Part shown: one piece after another, positions 1-6,996 of the stretch | Layout: every line of letters begins with the position of its first letter | Position numbering within the stretch: position 1 is the stretch's first letter | Assembly: GCA_013214575.1 (NCBI GenBank) | Contig: JABSSD010000035.1 | Coordinates: forward strand, 1-64,000 | Length of the DNA stretch: 64,000 bases | DNA from: Paracoccaceae bacterium | GTDB lineage: Bacteria; Pseudomonadota; Alphaproteobacteria; Rhodobacterales; Rhodobacteraceae | Direction of reading: 5' to 3' | Made by a program: the position numbers and the translations under genes | The notes under the pieces: model-generated | Seen by the model: the letters and a program-made list of their open reading frames with translations, nothing else | Database searches by the model: none | Told to the model about the DNA's origin: nothing

Positions 1-50
1 CCAGCCAGAGTGGGGCCAGCCAGAGTGGGGCCAGCCAGAGTGGGGCCAGC
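1..50. repeat. 15-bp tandem repeat at left window edge
   Basis: The unit CCAGCCAGAGTGGGG occurs three times in perfect tandem from the first base, followed by a partial fourth copy. Since 15 is a multiple of 3, the repeat could encode a pentapeptide repeat. On the plus strand the frame starting at base 2 reads Gln-Pro-Glu-Trp-Gly units and meets TGA at 56-58, so this could be the 3' end of a plus-strand gene converging on the minus-strand gene that stops at 95. The window edge prevents a decision; an intergenic minisatellite is equally possible. Confidence 0.6.
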
Positions 51-94
51 CTGAGTGAGCCGGTGCCGTTGGCCCGGATCGCAGGGGCCTCGTG

Positions 95-1273
95 CTATTG
101 CTGTTGGGCCGCCAGATATCCTATGCCACCGGCGAGGATCAGCCCCAGCGCAACAGCCGCCGCAATTTTCCAGGCGGAATAGGGACGTTCGCCCTGAACC
201 CGGCCGGACTGGCCGTTGACCACAAACCGATAGGTTTTGCCGCGGTACTTATAGGCGGCCAGCCAGACCGGCAGCAGCACATGTTTAAAGGTCACATCCG
301 ATATGGCGGTGTTGATGTCATGGATGCGCTGGCGGTCGCCGCCGATGTCAAAGCGTACATCGCGTTCGATCACCCGGTCCATCTTGGCGCGGGCCTGGCC
401 ATAGGCCTGCTGCAGCTCCACCGCATAGGCCTCGGCCCGGAACCCGGCCAGATACTGCGGCTGGTAGGGCTCCATTGCCGACAGATCCCAGGGCTCCAGC
501 GCCTCGGTATAGGATATGGGCAGGCTTTTGGAGGCCAGCACCAGCACATCGTCAAACCAGCGCCGAACCCGGCCCGAGGTGGGCCGCCAGCGCACTTTGG
601 CGACCTGGCGGCGCTGGCGCTTGCCATTCACCATTATCGACTCGGTGACATAATAGACGGTGCCGCGCTGGCCCGAATAGCTGGATTTGGTCTCCGCATC
701 AAAGGTCCAGTAAGGCACATAGATGCCCTGCATCTTGCGGCCCTTGCGGGCGTAGTCCTGCAGCCCGTTAGGGGCAAACCACAGCCGCCCCAACCAGGCG
801 CTCATCGCCCTGTGGGCCTTGGTTTCCTCAATGGCAAAGGGCAGCACGCCCTTGGGTTTGATGTGGCGGCTCTTGCCGGTGCCCAGCACCACAGGGGTGG
901 CACAGAACGGGCATTCGCTGGCATGGCTGCTGGGGTCGAATTCGATCTGCGCGGCGCAGTTGGGGCAGGCCGAGACCCGGGTGATCTCGATCTCGGCCTC
1001 GGGCAGATGCTGGGCCAGGGCAGTGTCGAAATCCAACTCGCGCAGGCTGGAGGCCTGCCAGGGCCCGGCGCCGATCTGCTCGGCATGTCCACAATGAGCG
1101 CAGCTCAGGCTGCGGTTGCCGGGGTCATAGCGATAGTCGCCACCACATTGCTCACAGGGAAAGCGGTGGCTTTCGCCGGCTGTGTCAGATGGCGTTTGCG
1201 CGCCCTGTGCGGCCTGTGCGGCTGGCGGAGGCGGCGGTGGGGGCAGTGGGGATGAAGACACGGCAGGGCTCAA
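95..1273 (-). CDS. zinc-ribbon protein with C-terminal membrane anchor
   Basis: The 392-residue protein starts with a proline-rich stretch and then has two CxxC...CxxC clusters (Cys40/43/58/61 and Cys103/106/121/124), the pattern of TFIIB-type zinc ribbons. A conserved-looking soluble middle part follows, and a single hydrophobic segment lies near residues 366-388. Such proteins are often misannotated as primosomal PriA-like helicases, but no helicase motif is present. It is the last gene of the minus-strand operon, 62 bp after the SPFH gene. Bacillus YdjG, a zinc-ribbon protein next to an SPFH protein, is the closest arrangement I know of. A role in membrane maintenance is inferred from that context only. 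Confidence 0.8.
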   Translation of the reverse strand: MSPAVSSSPLPPPPPPPAAQAAQGAQTPSDTAGESHRFPCEQCGGDYRYDPGNRSLSCAHCGHAEQIGAGPWQASSLRELDFDTALAQHLPEAEIEITRVSACPNCAAQIEFDPSSHASECPFCATPVVLGTGKSRHIKPKGVLPFAIEETKAHRAMSAWLGRLWFAPNGLQDYARKGRKMQGIYVPYWTFDAETKSSYSGQRGTVYYVTESIMVNGKRQRRQVAKVRWRPTSGRVRRWFDDVLVLASKSLPISYTEALEPWDLSAMEPYQPQYLAGFRAEAYAVELQQAYGQARAKMDRVIERDVRFDIGGDRQRIHDINTAISDVTFKHVLLPVWLAAYKYRGKTYRFVVNGQSGRVQGERPYSAWKIAAAVALGLILAGGIGYLAAQQQ

Positions 1274-1335
1274 ATCTGGAACAGGTGAAAATATGGGTCT
1301 GCCCGCGGCTGAAGATTACTGGCGGGCAAGCGGGT

Positions 1336-2499
1336 TCAGCCTGCGGCAGCAGGCGGTGGTGGTGGCGGCAGAATGGTGAACAGCTGCGCCAGTTCGATGA
1401 CCTCTTCGGCATGTTTCCAGCCATCCTGTCCGGGGGTCCAGACATGGGTTGTGCGGCTGAGACCGCCCTCGGCGGCCATCCGTCCCAGCCTGGCCTTGGA
1501 GAACGGCCCGCTGGTCTGGCCATCTTCGGCCAGATGCCAGACGTGCTCGACGGGGGGTGGCGGTGGCGCCAGGGCGGCGGCAACCGGCGCCGCCTGCGCT
1601 GTGGCTGCGGCAGCAGCGGGGGCGGGGCGGGCGCCCCAGGGACCAGTGGCCTGACCCGCTGCCATCGCCTGCGCCATGCCGATACCCATGCCCATTCCCA
1701 AACCGGCGCCCATGCCGCCACCGGGGTTTTGTGCTGCGGCGGTCATTGCCTCGGCGGCGGAAAACTGGGTGTAGCGGCCCAGATCGCCGATAATGCCCAT
1801 CTGGGTGCGCCTGTCCATCGCCGCCTCAACCGCCGCGGGCAGCGAGATGTTTTCGATATAGAGCTCGGGGATCGACAGGCCATAGTCGGCGATGGTGGCG
1901 GAAATCTCAGCCGCCACCAGCTTGCCCAGATCGGCGGTGTTGGCCGCCATATCCAGCACCGGCAGGCCCGAGCTGGCCAGCACGCGGGAAAACTCCTGCA
2001 CGATGATATTGCGCACCTGAAACGAGATCTCGTCCATGGTGAACTCGCCATCGGTGCCGACAATCTCGGTCAGAAAGCGGGCGGCATCGGCGACCTTGAC
2101 CGCATAGGTGCCAAAGGCGCGCAGCCGGATCGGGCCGAATTCGGGATCGCGGCAGATGATCGGGTTCTTGGTGCCCCATTTCAGGTCGTTGAAGCGCGTG
2201 GTATTGACGAAATAGATCTCTGATTTGAACGGTGACTGAAAGCCGTGGTCCCAGTGTTGCAGCGTTGTCATCACCGGCATGTTGTTGGTCTCAAGCATAT
2301 AAAGACCGGGGGTAAAGACATCCGCCAGTTGGCCCTCGTGGATGAACACCGCCGCCTGTCCGCTCCGCACCGTCAGTTTGGCACCATATTTGATCTCGTG
2401 GTCTTCGCGCTCAAACCGCCAGACCATAGTGTCGCGGCTGTCATCGACCCATTGAATGACATCGATGAATTCACCGGTCAGAAAATCAAAAATTCCCAT
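1336..2499 (-). CDS. SPFH/Band-7 domain protein with GYF-like C-terminal domain
   Basis: This 387-residue protein has an N-terminal SPFH core (about residues 30-240) of the type once called virion-core-protein-like, as in Bacillus YdjI. A Gly/Met/Ala-rich linker follows, then a GYF_2-like domain at about 325-375 (WHLAEDGQTSGPFS, then a tryptophan-containing end), and a polyproline tail. No transmembrane segment is obvious, so it is probably a peripheral membrane scaffold. An AAGGAC ribosome binding site precedes the ATG. It lies 17 bp after the DUF2927 gene and upstream of the zinc-ribbon gene. SPFH proteins organise membrane microdomains; the specific role here is not known. Confidence 0.85.
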   Translation of the reverse strand: MGIFDFLTGEFIDVIQWVDDSRDTMVWRFEREDHEIKYGAKLTVRSGQAAVFIHEGQLADVFTPGLYMLETNNMPVMTTLQHWDHGFQSPFKSEIYFVNTTRFNDLKWGTKNPIICRDPEFGPIRLRAFGTYAVKVADAARFLTEIVGTDGEFTMDEISFQVRNIIVQEFSRVLASSGLPVLDMAANTADLGKLVAAEISATIADYGLSIPELYIENISLPAAVEAAMDRRTQMGIIGDLGRYTQFSAAEAMTAAAQNPGGGMGAGLGMGMGIGMAQAMAAGQATGPWGARPAPAAAAATAQAAPVAAALAPPPPPVEHVWHLAEDGQTSGPFSKARLGRMAAEGGLSRTTHVWTPGQDGWKHAEEVIELAQLFTILPPPPPPAAAG

Positions 2500-2516
2500 C
2501 GTTCTGGTCCTTGTAA

Positions 2517-3485
2517 TTAGTAGGCGCGGGGCAGCGTCTCAGCAGGCAGCCCCATCAATTCATCGGCGATGACGCGGGTGATCGGGCGGGCCTGTGCGGC
2601 GCTCATCCCGGGGTGCAGTCGCGCATCGTATAACAGAGTCAGTAGTTTCTCGTCATGGCTGGTCAGCAGCGCAAATTCATCGTCATCGTTAAAGATCGAG
2701 GGCCGCGCCCGAGGGCTGTCATTGCGCAGTCCCAGCCCCTGTGCGACCTCTTCGTGGACGCAGCTTTGCCGCACCAGGTCCGGGTGCTCGGCGCGGATTA
2801 GCGCCACACCCCGGGTATAAGACAGCGGGTCCTGTTGCGGCCCGCCAGCCAGCACCAGACAGTAGAAACTGCGCGGTGGGTTGGCGAAGATCTCCAGATT
2901 TTCGGCGCTGATATTGGGCAGGATCTGTTGCAGCCGCGCCCGGATGAAATCGCTGTCATCCTTGCCGGCATAGATCACATGAAAATTGCCGCGCCCAGTG
3001 GTGGCGGTGATGGGATGACCGGTGATGCGGGCCAGTCGATCCGCATAACTGGCCAGAAAGCGAGTGTCCTGCTGGCGCTGCAACACCGGCACCGAGGGGC
3101 CAAATTCGGCCTTGATACGCACCGGGCCGGGCCAGCGGCTCAGCCCACCGGCACCGCGGCTGCCACTGCCGGCATATTCGTCGAAAAAGGCGATGGCCTC
3201 AAAATTGCGGACCAGTTTATCTGCGTTGTATGGGGTGTCCGGCCCGCCGCCATCTATGCGCAGCAAGCCGCGGGTCAGCAGATCCTGCTGCAGTACCGCA
3301 TAATAATGGGCCAGTTGTTCGCTGGCAGCCGAACGTGGCGGCGGCGCCTGATCTTGCGGCGGCGGCGGTGCCACCACCTGGGTGGTCTGTGGCGGCGGGG
3401 TGCAGGCCAGCAGCGCCGCCAGTCCAATCAGACCGGCGACTATGCCCCGTGACTTGCGCCGATTATCTTGCCCGCCCCAGCGCAT
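2517..3485 (-). CDS. DUF2927 lipoprotein with metalloprotease-like HEExxQ motif
   Basis: The 322-residue protein has a basic N-terminus, a hydrophobic stretch and a lipobox LLAC with Cys28, so it should be a lipoprotein. A proline-rich linker precedes the DUF2927 body. Residues 244-249 read HEEVAQ followed by GLGLRND, and then a DDDEF segment. A His-Glu-Glu helix of this kind suggests a zinc-peptidase-like fold, but I see no proven third ligand. The ATG lies 2 bp after the telA stop, indicating translational coupling. Its presence between telA and the SPFH gene makes it part of the same operon; its function is unassigned. Confidence 0.8.
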   Translation of the reverse strand: MRWGGQDNRRKSRGIVAGLIGLAALLACTPPPQTTQVVAPPPPQDQAPPPRSAASEQLAHYYAVLQQDLLTRGLLRIDGGGPDTPYNADKLVRNFEAIAFFDEYAGSGSRGAGGLSRWPGPVRIKAEFGPSVPVLQRQQDTRFLASYADRLARITGHPITATTGRGNFHVIYAGKDDSDFIRARLQQILPNISAENLEIFANPPRSFYCLVLAGGPQQDPLSYTRGVALIRAEHPDLVRQSCVHEEVAQGLGLRNDSPRARPSIFNDDDEFALLTSHDEKLLTLLYDARLHPGMSAAQARPITRVIADELMGLPAETLPRAY

Positions 3486-3487
3486 CT

Positions 3488-4678
3488 TCAGCCCGGCACC
3501 GAGGTGGCGGCGGTGTCGCCAACCGCATCCTGGCGCGCCCTGGCCGAGGCCAGGGTATCGCGCAGCTCACCCTCCATCTTGGTCAGCTCGCGGGCGGCGG
3601 CGGCGCGTTGGGTCTTGCCCTGATCAGCAATCGCCAGACTGTCCTGAATGGTGCCGATCAGATCGGCATTGGCCTGCTTTACCGCTTCGATGTCGAACAC
3701 CCCGCGCTCCATCTCCTGGCGTATTATCTTGTTGCTGGCGCGCAGGTTGGCGGCATTGGCGGTGAGCAGCTCATTGGTCAGGTCATTGGCGTCGCGCACC
3801 GCCGCGGCGGCCTCGGCGCTGCGCTGGATGGTCACCGCCTGCGCCAGCTGGGTCTCCCACAGCGGCACCGTGTTGACCAGGGTCGAGTTGATCTTGGTGA
3901 CCAGCGATTTGTCGTTTTCCTGCACCAGCCGGATTGAGGGCAGCGACTGCATGGTGACCTGACGGGTCAGTTTCAGATCATGCACCCGGCGCTCCAGATC
4001 ATCGCGGGCAGAGCGCAGGTCGCGCAGCTCCTGCGCCTGCATCACCTGTTGGCCCTCAGGTGCCACCGCCAGCTCAGCCTGCTGGGCGGGAATGGTGCTG
4101 CCGTCCAGCTGGCTCAGCTTTTCCTGACCGGCGGATATATACAGCCCCAGCTCGTCATAGAACTCCAGCGTCTTGCCATAGAGCATGTCCAGCGCTTTGA
4201 TGTCCTTCAGCAGGCTGTGCTCGTGGCTCAGCAGATTGTCGGTGATCTTGTCGATCTGCCCCATCACGGTTTCATAGCGGGCGGTGAACTGGGCAAAGGG
4301 CGCCGCCTTGCCGATCAGGCGCTCCCAAAAGCTGGGTTTGCGGCGCACGTCCAGTTCCGACACCGAGAAGCCGCGAATGGCGGTGACCATGTCGCGCAGA
4401 CTGTCGCCGGCCGGGCCCACATCCTTGTTGCGCACATCCGCCAGCATCGCCTGGCTGATCACCTGCAATTCCGCCTGTGCCGCCGAGCCAAACGAGATGA
4501 TCGAGTTACTGTCGCCCATGTCGATCTGATCCATGCGGGTGCGGATGGAGTCGCTTTTGGCGGCGTCGGCCTGCTCCAATGTCTGAATTTCGGCAACCGG
4601 CTCTGGCAGGACAATGGCTGTGGTTTCCCGGACCAGGCTTTCGGCCTCTGTCGCTTTCTGCGTCACTCTCTCGGACAT
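3488..4678 (-). CDS. telA: toxic anion resistance protein TelA family
   Basis: The sequence is a long, mostly helical soluble protein (396 residues from the chosen start) with the TelA/YceH/YaaN family pattern, including the GDSNSIISFGSAAQ segment near the N-terminus and the conserved VPLWETQLAQAV segment near residue 290. The start was set at the ATG at 4678 because GAGGGAAG lies just upstream; an in-frame ATG at 4699 overlaps the preceding stop. TelA proteins were named for tellurite resistance and are common partners of XpaC-like proteins, as here. The biochemical role in the family is not settled; protection of the envelope or response to toxic compounds is inferred. Confidence 0.88.
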   Translation of the reverse strand: MSERVTQKATEAESLVRETTAIVLPEPVAEIQTLEQADAAKSDSIRTRMDQIDMGDSNSIISFGSAAQAELQVISQAMLADVRNKDVGPAGDSLRDMVTAIRGFSVSELDVRRKPSFWERLIGKAAPFAQFTARYETVMGQIDKITDNLLSHEHSLLKDIKALDMLYGKTLEFYDELGLYISAGQEKLSQLDGSTIPAQQAELAVAPEGQQVMQAQELRDLRSARDDLERRVHDLKLTRQVTMQSLPSIRLVQENDKSLVTKINSTLVNTVPLWETQLAQAVTIQRSAEAAAAVRDANDLTNELLTANAANLRASNKIIRQEMERGVFDIEAVKQANADLIGTIQDSLAIADQGKTQRAAAARELTKMEGELRDTLASARARQDAVGDTAATSVPG

Positions 4679-4698
4679 ATTGGCTTCCCTCATTAACA

Positions 4699-5610
4699 TC
4701 AGGTCAGATCCAGATGGACCCCTTCGCGCTGCAACCGATCCCGCAGCACGTCTATTTCAATGGTCAGATCGCTGCGATCTTCCAGCAGCATTTTGCGGTT
4801 CCGGGCGGCGAAACCCTGCTCCAGATCATCCAGCAGCGCCAGATAGTCGGCGCGGGCCTGGGCATCCTGGCTGCGGCTATAGATATCGGCGAATTTCACC
4901 GTCGCATCACGGGCGCCCTGCAAATAGACCGTCAGATACTTGCGTGCGGCGGTTAGGTCGCGCGGGTCTTCCTCGACGGTGCGGAACAGCTCGCGGGCGA
5001 TGGATTGGAACTGCGCCACGCGGGCGTCGATCTGGCGATCCTGCGCCCGCCGGGCCGCCTCCCGCATCGTGGCCAGATAGGCCTCGGCATCCCCGAGAAC
5101 CCGGGCCACCCGGGAGTGCTGAAATTCGTCAATGCCTTCGACGCCCTTGTCTTTCATCGGGTCCAGGCCAAAGGCCGCCATATGCAGCGCCAGCGCCGCC
5201 GAGCCATAGATAGCCGCGATCAGCAGCCCCGGTTCGGCCTTCCAGGCGGCCAGCGCGGCACCAATCCCGGTTAGGATCGAGGCGACAAGCTTGCGGGGCA
5301 GGGCGGGGCGACGGGCCACCCGGCGGGCGTCATAGGCGCTTTGTGCCCGCAGGCCTTGGCGCAACATCCAGGCGGCAGCGGTCCAGATCCCAGCCGCCAG
5401 CAGTCCCAGCGCCAGCCCCATAGCACCGTCCAGCAGTGAAAACAGAACCATCACCGCAGGCGGTACGAACATCAGGTTCGAGCCCGCGCCGATCGGGTCC
5501 GGCTGGGCATTTGTGTAAGGATTTGAAGGTGCTGCGGGGCGGGGCGGGGCACCCTCAGGGCGGTCCGGGTCGCCTTTGGGGCTGTAGTGTCCGCCGAATT
5601 TCCTGGCCAT
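4699..5610 (-). CDS. XpaC-like protein (5-bromo-4-chloroindolyl phosphate hydrolysis family)
   Basis: The 303-residue protein has a Pro/Gly-rich N-terminus, two hydrophobic segments at roughly residues 45-80, a further hydrophobic pair around 105-145, and a cytosolic helical C-terminal half containing GVEGIDEFQHSRVARVLG. That layout and the immediate coupling to telA fit the XpaC family, whose members pair with TelA-type proteins (XpaC-YaaN in Bacillus). The stop overlaps the first possible telA start (TGATG), so the two are translationally coupled. The family name reflects an old phenotype and does not prove a hydrolase activity. Confidence 0.75.
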   Translation of the reverse strand: MARKFGGHYSPKGDPDRPEGAPPRPAAPSNPYTNAQPDPIGAGSNLMFVPPAVMVLFSLLDGAMGLALGLLAAGIWTAAAWMLRQGLRAQSAYDARRVARRPALPRKLVASILTGIGAALAAWKAEPGLLIAAIYGSAALALHMAAFGLDPMKDKGVEGIDEFQHSRVARVLGDAEAYLATMREAARRAQDRQIDARVAQFQSIARELFRTVEEDPRDLTAARKYLTVYLQGARDATVKFADIYSRSQDAQARADYLALLDDLEQGFAARNRKMLLEDRSDLTIEIDVLRDRLQREGVHLDLT

Positions 5611-5615
5611 GTGCT

Positions 5616-5690
5616 TTAGGCCCCCACAATCCAGCCGGTGCTGAGACCGAGCATCAGGATCAATAGGGCCACAAAGGCAAGTTTCTGCAC
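5616..5690 (-). CDS. possible 24-residue membrane peptide
   Basis: A short frame with a GTG start (5688-5690, minus strand) encodes 24 residues: MQKLAF, then a run of Val, Leu, Ile, Met and Gly, ending in GWIVGA and TAA. It is a single hydrophobic helix with one lysine. GGGAGA lies about 7 bp upstream of the GTG. The stop is 5 bp before the XpaC-like ATG, so it could be the first gene of the operon or a leader peptide. The alternative is chance, as an open frame of this length carries little statistical weight. Confidence 0.35.
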   Translation of the reverse strand: MQKLAFVALLILMLGLSTGWIVGA

Positions 5691-5775
5691 GCGGGGTCTC
5701 CCGAAGACGCTGTTCCGCCTTAGAATTTAGGCGATAGCGGGGCGTCTTACTAGGGGGAACTCGCGCGCAGTCGGA

Positions 5776-6996
5776 TCAGCGACGGGGATTCTTGCCGCCC
5801 GGCTTGCCGCCCGAGCGCCCGTCAGGGCGCTGCGAAGGTCTGCCTGTGCTGGGTTTGCCACCGCTGCGGCCAGTCGGGGGGCCGCCGGGTCGGCCCGTTG
5901 GGTTGCCACCGGGGCGGCCAGTGGGCTTACCGCCACTGGAGCGGTCGGGGCCCTTGCTGGAATAGCCGCCGGGTCGGCCATCGGGTTTGCCGCCTGTACG
6001 ACCATCGGGTTTGCCGCCTGTACGACCATCGGGTTTGCCGCCTGTACGACCATCGGGTTTGCCGCCTGTGCGGCCAGTGGGTCGACCACCACCGGAGCGG
6101 TCGGGGCCCTTGCTGGAATAGCCGCGAGTGGCTGAGCGTCTGTCCTCTTCCGGCTCCCGCGGGAGCCCGGGTTTGCCTGCCATCGTGCTGCGGCGTTTGC
6201 GCTGCGGACGTCCGGGTTTTGCGGTGACCTCGGGCTCTGGCTCGGCCTCCAGTCCCAGCTGATCGCGCATCACCTTGCGGCGGATTTCCTCAACCGCGCC
6301 CAGTTTCAGCTGACCCAGTTGGAACGGCCCATATGACACCCGCAGCAACCGGTTCACAGTAAAGCCGATATCCTCGATGGCGCGGCGGACTTCACGGTTC
6401 TTGCCTTCGCGGATGCCGATCGTCAGCCAGGCATTGGCGCCCTGCTGGCGGTCCAGCGTCACCTGCATCGACTGGAACCGCTCACCGTCGATCACCATGC
6501 CTTTGCGCAGCGGCTCAAAATCGCTGTCCTGCGGCCGGCCATTGATCCGCACCCGGTATTTGCGCAGCCATCCGGTCGAGGGCAGCTCAAGCTGGCGCTT
6601 GATGCCGCCATCATTGGTCAGCAGCAGCAGGCCTTCGGAGTTGATATCCAGCCGGCCCACCGTCATCACCCGTGGCAGATCCTCGGGTAGGCGGTCAAAG
6701 ATCGTGGTGCGACCTTTTTCATCACTGTTGGTGGTCACCAGCCCGCTGGGCTTGTGATAGAGCCACAGCCGCGCCGGTTCCGGGTCTCCCACCGGTTTGC
6801 CATCGACAGTGATTCTGTCCTGTGGCGTGACGTTCAGCGCCGGGCTGTCGATCACGGTGCCATTGACGGCCACCAGCCCGGCTTCGATCATGCGCTCGGC
6901 CTCGCGACGCGAGGCAATGCCGGCACGGGCGAGAACTTTGGCGATGCGATCGCCGGCCGGGGGTGAGCCGGGAGGAGGGGTCTGAGATTGGGTCAT
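5776..6996 (-). CDS. rluB: 23S rRNA pseudouridine synthase, RsuA/RluB/E/F family
   Basis: An S4 RNA-binding domain (about residues 17-60, [19 protein letters not shown]) is followed by a pseudouridine synthase domain. Its catalytic motif [13 protein letters not shown] puts the active Asp at 117. The catalytic core ends near residue 245; the remaining 160 residues are a basic Gly/Arg/Lys/Pro tail with KPDGRTGG repeats, probably an RNA-binding extension. Total length is 406, longer than E. coli RluB because of the tail. The substrate is probably 23S rRNA, U2605-type, but family members with other specificities cannot be excluded. It is divergent from tadA, with 61 bp between the starts. Confidence 0.87.
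5978..6073 (-). repeat. 24-bp tandem repeats coding KPDGRTGG in the rluB tail
   Basis: Four consecutive 24-bp units begin with CCATCGGGTTTGCCGCCTGT on the plus strand. The first three are identical and the fourth ends differently. Read on the minus strand they encode the octapeptide KPDGRTGG inside the synthase tail. Near-perfect nucleotide identity points to recent slippage, so copy number may vary between strains without breaking the frame. Confidence 0.9.

Follow-up and report, generated by a model that had tools for sequence, protein, structure and literature searches.

In Bacillus subtilis the SPFH protein YdjI, together with YdjG and YdjH, recruits PspA to the membrane (PMC8581546), and band-7 and zinc-ribbon partners of PspA have been described by Ravi et al. 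2024 (PMC11237479), whose text contains none of the terms 'XpaC', 'toxic anion' and 'TelA'. In Listeria, an operon carries homologues of XpaC and TelA, and disruption of the TelA/YaaN homologue renders the cells 4-fold more susceptible to nisin (PMC12791056). Here we analyze a locus in which both kinds of genes lie together. At the start of a 64,000-nucleotide stretch of DNA from a Paracoccaceae bacterium (contig JABSSD010000035.1, positions 1 to 64,000; hereafter the window), genes for an XpaC-family membrane protein, TelA, a DUF2927 lipoprotein, an SPFH protein with a C-terminal GYF domain and a zinc-ribbon protein (ZnR) follow one another as an operon, preceded by the gene of a 24-residue membrane protein. 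By its distribution among genomes the operon is composed of two layers, an older XpaC-TelA-SPFH-ZnR block and a separable DUF2927. We suggest, with a probability of roughly 0.45, that it corresponds to the membrane-stress platform formed by PspA and YdjGHI in Bacillus, but does without PspA, TelA being the cytosolic partner in its stead.

The likeness to the B. subtilis pspA-ydjGHI cluster (ydjFGHI), noted in the original prediction, holds for the SPFH and zinc-ribbon proteins and stops at PspA. Both are single operons encoding an SPFH protein with an accessory C-terminal domain and membrane partners, among them a protein with two zinc ribbons and a transmembrane (TM) segment, the resemblance to YdjG being one of these features. 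Unlike the Bacillus cluster, the host genome (99.99% complete) has no match to PspA (PF04012), with TelA and XpaC present instead, a GYF domain replaces the C-terminal zinc ribbon, and a 24-residue TM protein and a DUF2927 lipoprotein are added. No Pfam match to the TPM domain of YdjH was found in a scan limited to the five proteins; it took in neither the rest of the genome nor the 3' end of the operon, which lies beyond the contig. Because PspA is missing, the operon is not a member of the PspA-YdjGHI system, but it may work like it. Within the family (Rhodobacteraceae), PF04012 passes its cut-off in 11 of 61 genomes. With the xpaC-telA (yaaN) pairs of Firmicutes, such as Listeria lmo1966-lmo1967, the locus shares adjacent XpaC and TelA homologues, whereas here these are part of one operon with SPFH, a zinc ribbon and, in the family, DUF2927. 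Literature searches on DUF2927, on TelA, SPFH and XpaC, on GYF with SPFH, on PF10112 and on small membrane proteins in Rhodobacteraceae, from whose reach subscription papers were mostly excluded, returned nothing on the operon.

Gene order within the family

Two sets of relatives were compared. The family sample comprises 120 genomes, each of its own genus; TelA is present in 105 of them and DUF2927 in 114. The telA loci of all 105 were examined, namely the window, 30 loci (L002-L031) and 74 longer ones (L032-L105). The named loci, 80 in number, rank highest among at least 591 relatives and are biased to near kin; the nearest named relatives are Rhodobacteraceae, the best TelA being 88% identical (Zongyanglinia marina).

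XpaC is found upstream of telA in 102 of the 105 loci (the window, 30/30 and 71/74), and DUF2927 downstream in 99 (the window, 27/30 and 71/74). Downstream here requires the same strand and the same locus; a few loci have another gene, or roughly 1 kb, in between. Among the six loci lacking a downstream DUF2927, two are cut by contig ends (L054, L085), one carries an open reading frame (ORF) without Pfam match (L004) and one a gene for a GSCFA protein (L064), while L015 and L017 have no DUF2927 in the 1.5-kb flank of telA. Among the 74 longer loci, 68 have SPFH and 61 have ZnR; of those without, three of six for SPFH and nine of 13 for ZnR lie at contig ends. The order XpaC-TelA-DUF2927 recurs in 80/80 named loci, and in a phylum sample, where TelA passes its cut-off in 60 of 299 genomes, DUF2927 stands beside TelA in 16 of 18 further family loci. 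Thus a check proposed earlier, comparison of gene order across the family, came out as expected both in the named loci and in most of the even sample.

Gaps could be measured in 54 (XpaC-TelA), 76 (TelA-DUF2927), 79 (DUF2927-SPFH) and 58 (SPFH-ZnR) of the 80 loci, the others having no assigned start or lacking one of the two genes. With starts chosen automatically, TelA and DUF2927 are separated by a median of 7 bp and by at most 100 bp in 76/76 cases. The loosest joint is that between SPFH and ZnR, which exceeds 300 bp in 26 of the 58 loci, for example where a cytochrome b561-like gene intervenes. A record titled Enemella evansiae (L188) also carries the operon with DUF2927 in family-like order; its title looks wrong for its sequence.

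A four-gene block and a seemingly separable DUF2927

Four genomes of three other alphaproteobacterial families (G165, G231, G219, G306) encode XpaC, TelA, SPFH and ZnR in the same order without DUF2927, and none of them is among the 35 DUF2927-matching genomes of a class-wide sample (241 genomes, TelA over cut-off in 22). Inside the family, TelA lies next to SPFH without DUF2927 in G512 (L289) and G608 (L301). In the 15 family genomes without telA the block tends to be missing as a whole: no XpaC match reaches the cut-off, SPFH gives a strong match in one genome (G119), and ZnR is found in three (G022, G095, G119), leaving 12 that lack all four genes at the level of real matches. The contig begins 251 bases upstream of ZnR in G022, 476 bases upstream of ZnR in G095 and 109 bases upstream of SPFH in G119, and these remnants of the block look like assembly cuts at the contig start, on the side of the operon; four of the 15 genomes are of doubtful completeness (G022, G033 and G119 below 90% complete, G095 in about 350 contigs). 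ZnR was not found beside TelA in G062, G085, G083, G004 and G078 (L096); in the first four, where SPFH too was not found beside TelA, a search of the genome locates ZnR elsewhere. A Fisher test of SPFH against TelA (68/71 vs 0/12) yields p ~5e-12, with relatedness not corrected for, SPFH counted locally in telA genomes and genome-wide in the others, and contig-cut cases left out. The shared order in other families and the near all-or-none presence strongly support the linkage of XpaC and TelA to the SPFH-zinc-ribbon pair that the original prediction had proposed. As a side observation, seven contigs of a viral collection (L275-L281) encode TelA relatives of 33-37% identity, with a weak XpaC-like neighbor in four of six examined.

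DUF2927 behaves differently. With the block absent, it stands beside the pseudouridine-synthase gene in G014, G061, G089 and G102, a TerC gene lying between the two in G061 and G089, and it is located elsewhere in G109. These five block-less sequences occupy five places in the DUF2927 gene tree, at least four of which are forced by well-supported branches, and are therefore most simply read as at least four independent losses of the block during which DUF2927 survived. The expected co-conservation of DUF2927 with TelA and SPFH is thus seen in its position downstream of telA, but fails where the block occurs without DUF2927 and where DUF2927 occurs without the block. Likewise, less now speaks for DUF2927 as the link from the cytosolic and membrane parts to the envelope, since the block does without it in other families and in some family members, and since it persists without the block in five family genomes.

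DUF2927 might accordingly be a syntenic neighbor with a job of its own, the remaining genes being the module. The genomes that have lost the block but keep DUF2927 next to the pseudouridine-synthase gene, and the separate places of the block-less sequences in the tree, speak for this; the tight spacing between TelA and DUF2927 speaks against it, as does G018, in which DUF2927, SPFH and ZnR lie together about 36 kb away from XpaC-TelA. On balance we regard the neighbor explanation as a serious possibility, held at somewhat less than even odds.

A small membrane protein gene at the head of the operon

The original prediction rightly listed five genes and left a sixth unnamed, although the coordinate at which it ended the operon, 5690, is the first base of that gene. 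Situated between the pseudouridine-synthase gene and xpaC, it is an ORF of 24 codons with one hydrophobic segment. A hydrophobic ORF of 24-45 codons, the longest start being taken, ends -5 to +1 of the xpaC start in 79/79 named loci, one of the 80 with fewer than 250 bases upstream having been left out. The same filter at the same spacing finds 0/330 in front of the other genes (0/53 TelA, 0/76 DUF2927, 0/79 SPFH, 0/58 ZnR, 0/64 pseudouridine synthase) and a hit in 0.06% of 1580 shuffles that preserve base make-up only; at any spacing the controls give 0/53, 0/76, 0/79, 3/58 and 2/64, in that order. In 86 moderately divergent pairs pN/pS is 0.28 in frame vs 1.03 and 2.36 in the other two frames. 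Hence, the small ORF is under purifying selection. Among 80 sequences of the small protein, the window included, Q (in 67) and K (in 65) precede the segment and one Leu is invariant. A weaker observation is that, of four operons from other families, three likewise have hydrophobic ORFs close to xpaC. In a few genomes a second XpaC-like ORF precedes xpaC.

Upstream of the small ORF, a promoter-like element is found in 18 of 80 regions, compared with a mean of 0.25 and a highest count of 3 in shuffles of the same kind. Control regions yield 0/79 for XpaC, 0/53 for TelA, 0/76 for DUF2927, 1/79 for SPFH and 1/58 for ZnR, of which the XpaC control is not independent, its 130-base region overlapping the right half of the element. 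Of the 13 aligned sequences that served to define the pattern, 12 match it; the remaining 6 of the 18 matches lie outside that set. Given its presence in 18/80 regions, the element is, by sequence comparison, a feature of the window's nearer kin and not of all relatives. It may resemble a sigma-32 type site. A scan of positions 1-6000 for sigma-70 promoters and terminators found no site at the operon head and as many terminators as in shuffles. The leader upstream of the small ORF (window 5680-5780) could form a strong hairpin (z -3.68 vs shuffles); kept hairpin arms were not seen in 13 aligned relatives, and for this reason we claim no RNA element there.

Predicted fold of DUF2927 and a possible role of metals

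An AlphaFold2 model built from an alignment of 61 DUF2927 sequences (pLDDT 88.1, pTM 0.82) confidently predicts a metzincin fold, that of matrix metalloproteinases (MMP), for about residues 94-289. All 50 rows listed by the structure aligner are MMP or MMP-like, with Z 11.5 and rmsd 2.8 over 147 residues to MMP7 (2y6d); Foldseek is modest, its best match having E 3.7e-3 and probability 1.00 and none falling below 0.001. A sequence-profile search of PDB found no relative, the five matches at E 1.5-2.3 belonging to an unrelated family.

The zinc site HExxHxxGxxH is absent from the DUF2927 protein of the window. Instead, E245-E246-x-x-Q249 lies in the helix 236-250, with G252 and D256 after it, and none of these residues varies among the 61 sequences. 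At this site, 26 DUF2927 loci of other families (L116-L141) show HExxH in six, EExxQ in 15 and neither in five; the full motif is HExxHxxGxxxH in L133, L134, L135, L136 and L139 and HExxHxxGxxH in L137. Aligning EExxQ...D with the HExxHxxGxxxH relatives makes the three zinc histidines correspond to E, Q and D, with the catalytic Glu kept. Thus, set beside matrixins and other metzincins at the level of predicted fold and sequence alignment, DUF2927 shares the predicted fold and, in the family alignment, the Glu after the first ligand position, but differs in that all zinc histidines are replaced by invariant residues and in being a lipoprotein (of the 80 relatives 71 were usable, and 62 of these have a strict lipobox). 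Either state of the site may be the ancestral one, EExxQ being the commoner. A zinc protease of the usual type is unlikely; the invariance of the site argues for a kept function, and in the envelope DUF2927 probably serves for binding or sensing.

The five loci with HExxHxxGxxxH, from other alphaproteobacterial families, possibly encode active metzincins, judging by the intact motif. A second DUF2927 paralogue of roughly 450-650 residues is common in the family (L106-L111; in the host genome at G000:C124:38392-38991), and in five of six loci an ORF with AHELGH, M48-like by motif alone, lies within 3 kb of it on the same strand. One genome shows a tandem expansion, with seven DUF2927 matches in some 20 kb (L130, G252:C1).

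The E/Q/D site of DUF2927 bears on a second explanation, a metal module in which exported or membrane proteins would be metalated or protected from mis-metalation; DUF2927 would bind metal in the envelope, and TerC would be a transporter of metal that the module can do without. In B. subtilis, secreted enzymes are metalated by TerC proteins (PMC10550928), and the E/Q/D set of DUF2927 is one of hard ligands. Among the 120 family genomes, 22 carry a TerC subtype (119-132 bits, profile end 175): 18 next to TelA, two next to DUF2927 where TelA is missing, and two at another place. Most of the 105 telA genomes therefore lack it next to TelA, and TerC gives no match whatsoever in the host genome, so that we consider the metal module unlikely. 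The subtype itself is almost confined to the operon, 20 of its 22 carriers having it beside TelA or DUF2927 (e.g. L256, L257, L038, L050).

The same TerC linkage has been weighed for a third explanation, a classical TelA-type determinant of tellurite or oxyanion resistance. Here too the locus is like Ter-type stress genes in the TerC subtype upstream of 18 of 105 telA genes, and unlike them in the lack of TerC from the host genome and of any TerB or TerD family among the five proteins, the genome not having been searched for the latter two. By sequence TelA belongs to the family so named, and a review counts the R. sphaeroides telA gene as one of the chromosomal tellurite determinants and also calls the molecular basis of most such systems unclear (PMC6955997). 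The Listeria mutant is 2-fold more susceptible to tellurite (PMC12791056), but its nisin effect is the larger one, and neither Pfam nor NCBIfam recognizes a reductase or transporter family among the five proteins. A tellurite determinant is thus improbable. An anti-phage defence function was rejected, as a PADLOC search gave no meaningful match.

The SPFH, zinc-ribbon and TelA proteins

In the SPFH protein, PPP lies at most 15 residues before the GYF motif in 75/75 usable relatives, and PPPP occurs in the last 25 residues in 74/75. GYF domains bind proline-rich peptides, from which self-association of SPFH through GYF and polyproline is a guess. The CxxC motifs of ZnR are at residues 40, 58, 103 and 121, ahead of a C-terminal hydrophobic segment; among 56 relatives of usable length four CxxC are kept in 54, the C-terminal TM segment in 55, and PPPP is found near the N-terminus in 16.

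The model of TelA consists of long helices (pLDDT 74.2, pTM 0.55). A fold-based homology to PspA/ESCRT-III was considered and not adopted, the best rows being designed or viral-fusion helical bundles and alpha pore-forming toxins with Z no higher than 11.9, and since this is under the tool's caution level of about 13 for long helices, nothing is concluded from the fold. That PspA does not appear among the structure matches listed proves nothing. No solved relative of TelA or SPFH was found by sequence at E 0.01.

Locus layout and neighboring features

All five named ORFs are on the minus strand, spanning 95-5610, and the gaps between them range from an overlap to 62-74 bp. Coordinates, gaps and conserved gene order bear out the five-gene operon originally described, insofar as sequence can; four of the five names are supported by Pfam, while ZnR falls below every Pfam cut-off. 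An NCBIfam search of the five proteins added nothing useful, and in PHROGs TelA matches a family annotated 'tellurite resistance', with nothing useful for the others.

Coordinates of the operon genes and the upstream element in the window
Feature	Positions	Strand	Basis and remarks
Promoter-like element CT(A/G)G-N18-CCTAn(A/T)T	5725-5753	minus	identical spacing in 18/80 upstream regions, window included
Small protein, 24 residues, single TM, first operon gene	5616-5690	minus	GTG start; conservation, pN/pS
XpaC-family membrane protein (PF10112)	4699-5610	minus	Pfam 100.1 bits, curated cut-off 29.8; hydrophobic near residues 46-83 and 128-146
TelA (PF05816)	3488-4699, start possibly 4678	minus	Pfam 348 bits, cut-off 30; full-length, profile 4-331 of 332
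DUF2927 lipoprotein	2517-3485	minus	Pfam 201.9 bits; predicted metzincin fold, zinc ligands replaced
SPFH protein (Band_7_1) with C-terminal GYF_2 flanked by polyproline	1336-2499	minus	Pfam 332.5 bits (cut-off 24) and 67.5 bits
Zinc-ribbon protein (ZnR)	95-1261 (GTG start) or 95-1273 (TTG start)	minus	four CxxC, C-terminal TM helix

The later TelA start, an ATG, is possible because the alignment with many relatives sets in at residue 8. The first base of the window is also that of its contig (C148), and genes 3' of ZnR are outside view in the host genome. The contig opens in a 15-bp tandem repeat (window 1-57, 3.8 copies), a possible cause of the assembly break. On the other side of the operon, 24-bp tandem repeats occupy the 3' part of the pseudouridine-synthase gene (window 5857-6076).

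A possible membrane platform without PspA

Taken by analogy with the Bacillus system, the operon would encode a platform for membrane surveillance or repair on the inner face of the cytoplasmic membrane, and the envelope-stress role proposed in the original prediction is plausible. XpaC, the 24-residue protein and the tail-anchored ZnR would serve as its membrane seat, on which SPFH-GYF would assemble, possibly with the GYF domain binding the polyproline flanks of neighboring subunits. TelA, with its predicted long helices, would take the place that PspA has in Bacillus YdjGHI. The working unit of this inferred complex would be XpaC-TelA-SPFH-ZnR; DUF2927 would have been added later in the family, as a periplasm-facing lipoprotein that is coexpressed but separable.

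Several observations weigh against such a platform. In 14 of the 18 TelA genomes outside the family (all but the four with the block) no such partners lie within 1.5 kb of TelA, the TelA of these 14 being more distant, at most 39% identical where matched, and six further loci of other families in the phylum sample (L300, L303-L307) likewise lack them. Genomes without telA are not entirely clean, G090 showing a sub-threshold XpaC match and G059 a weak SPFH-family match of 27.9 bits. Most of the 74 longer loci also keep the pseudouridine-synthase gene and tadA in synteny, genes with no evident link to the operon, and gene order within the family alone therefore proves little. Because SPFH-ZnR spacing is loose, a single transcript reaching ZnR is not certain in relatives. 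Finally, the structure matches of TelA are non-specifically helical and below the level to trust, and the Listeria mutant, as mentioned, responds to tellurite as well as to nisin.

A bolder version of the PspA-less platform can be imagined, in which DUF2927 is a metzincin with exchanged ligands. Its E/E/Q/D site would hold a hard metal such as Mn or Ca, which TerC would load in genomes that have it, or would perform new chemistry, and the protein would report the state of the envelope to an SPFH-TelA repair platform seated by the 24-residue protein; as a whole, this is a long shot.

The PspA-less platform offers a testable frame that covers four little-understood families together. For TelA and XpaC there is now a genomic partner, SPFH with a zinc ribbon, that is present or absent together with them; DUF2927 gains a predicted fold and a defined change of its site; and a conserved membrane protein of 24 residues, short enough for gene callers to miss, joins the operon. 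Such a frame would test whether, where bacteria have no PspA, TelA can take the part of PspA/ESCRT-III as client of an SPFH platform.

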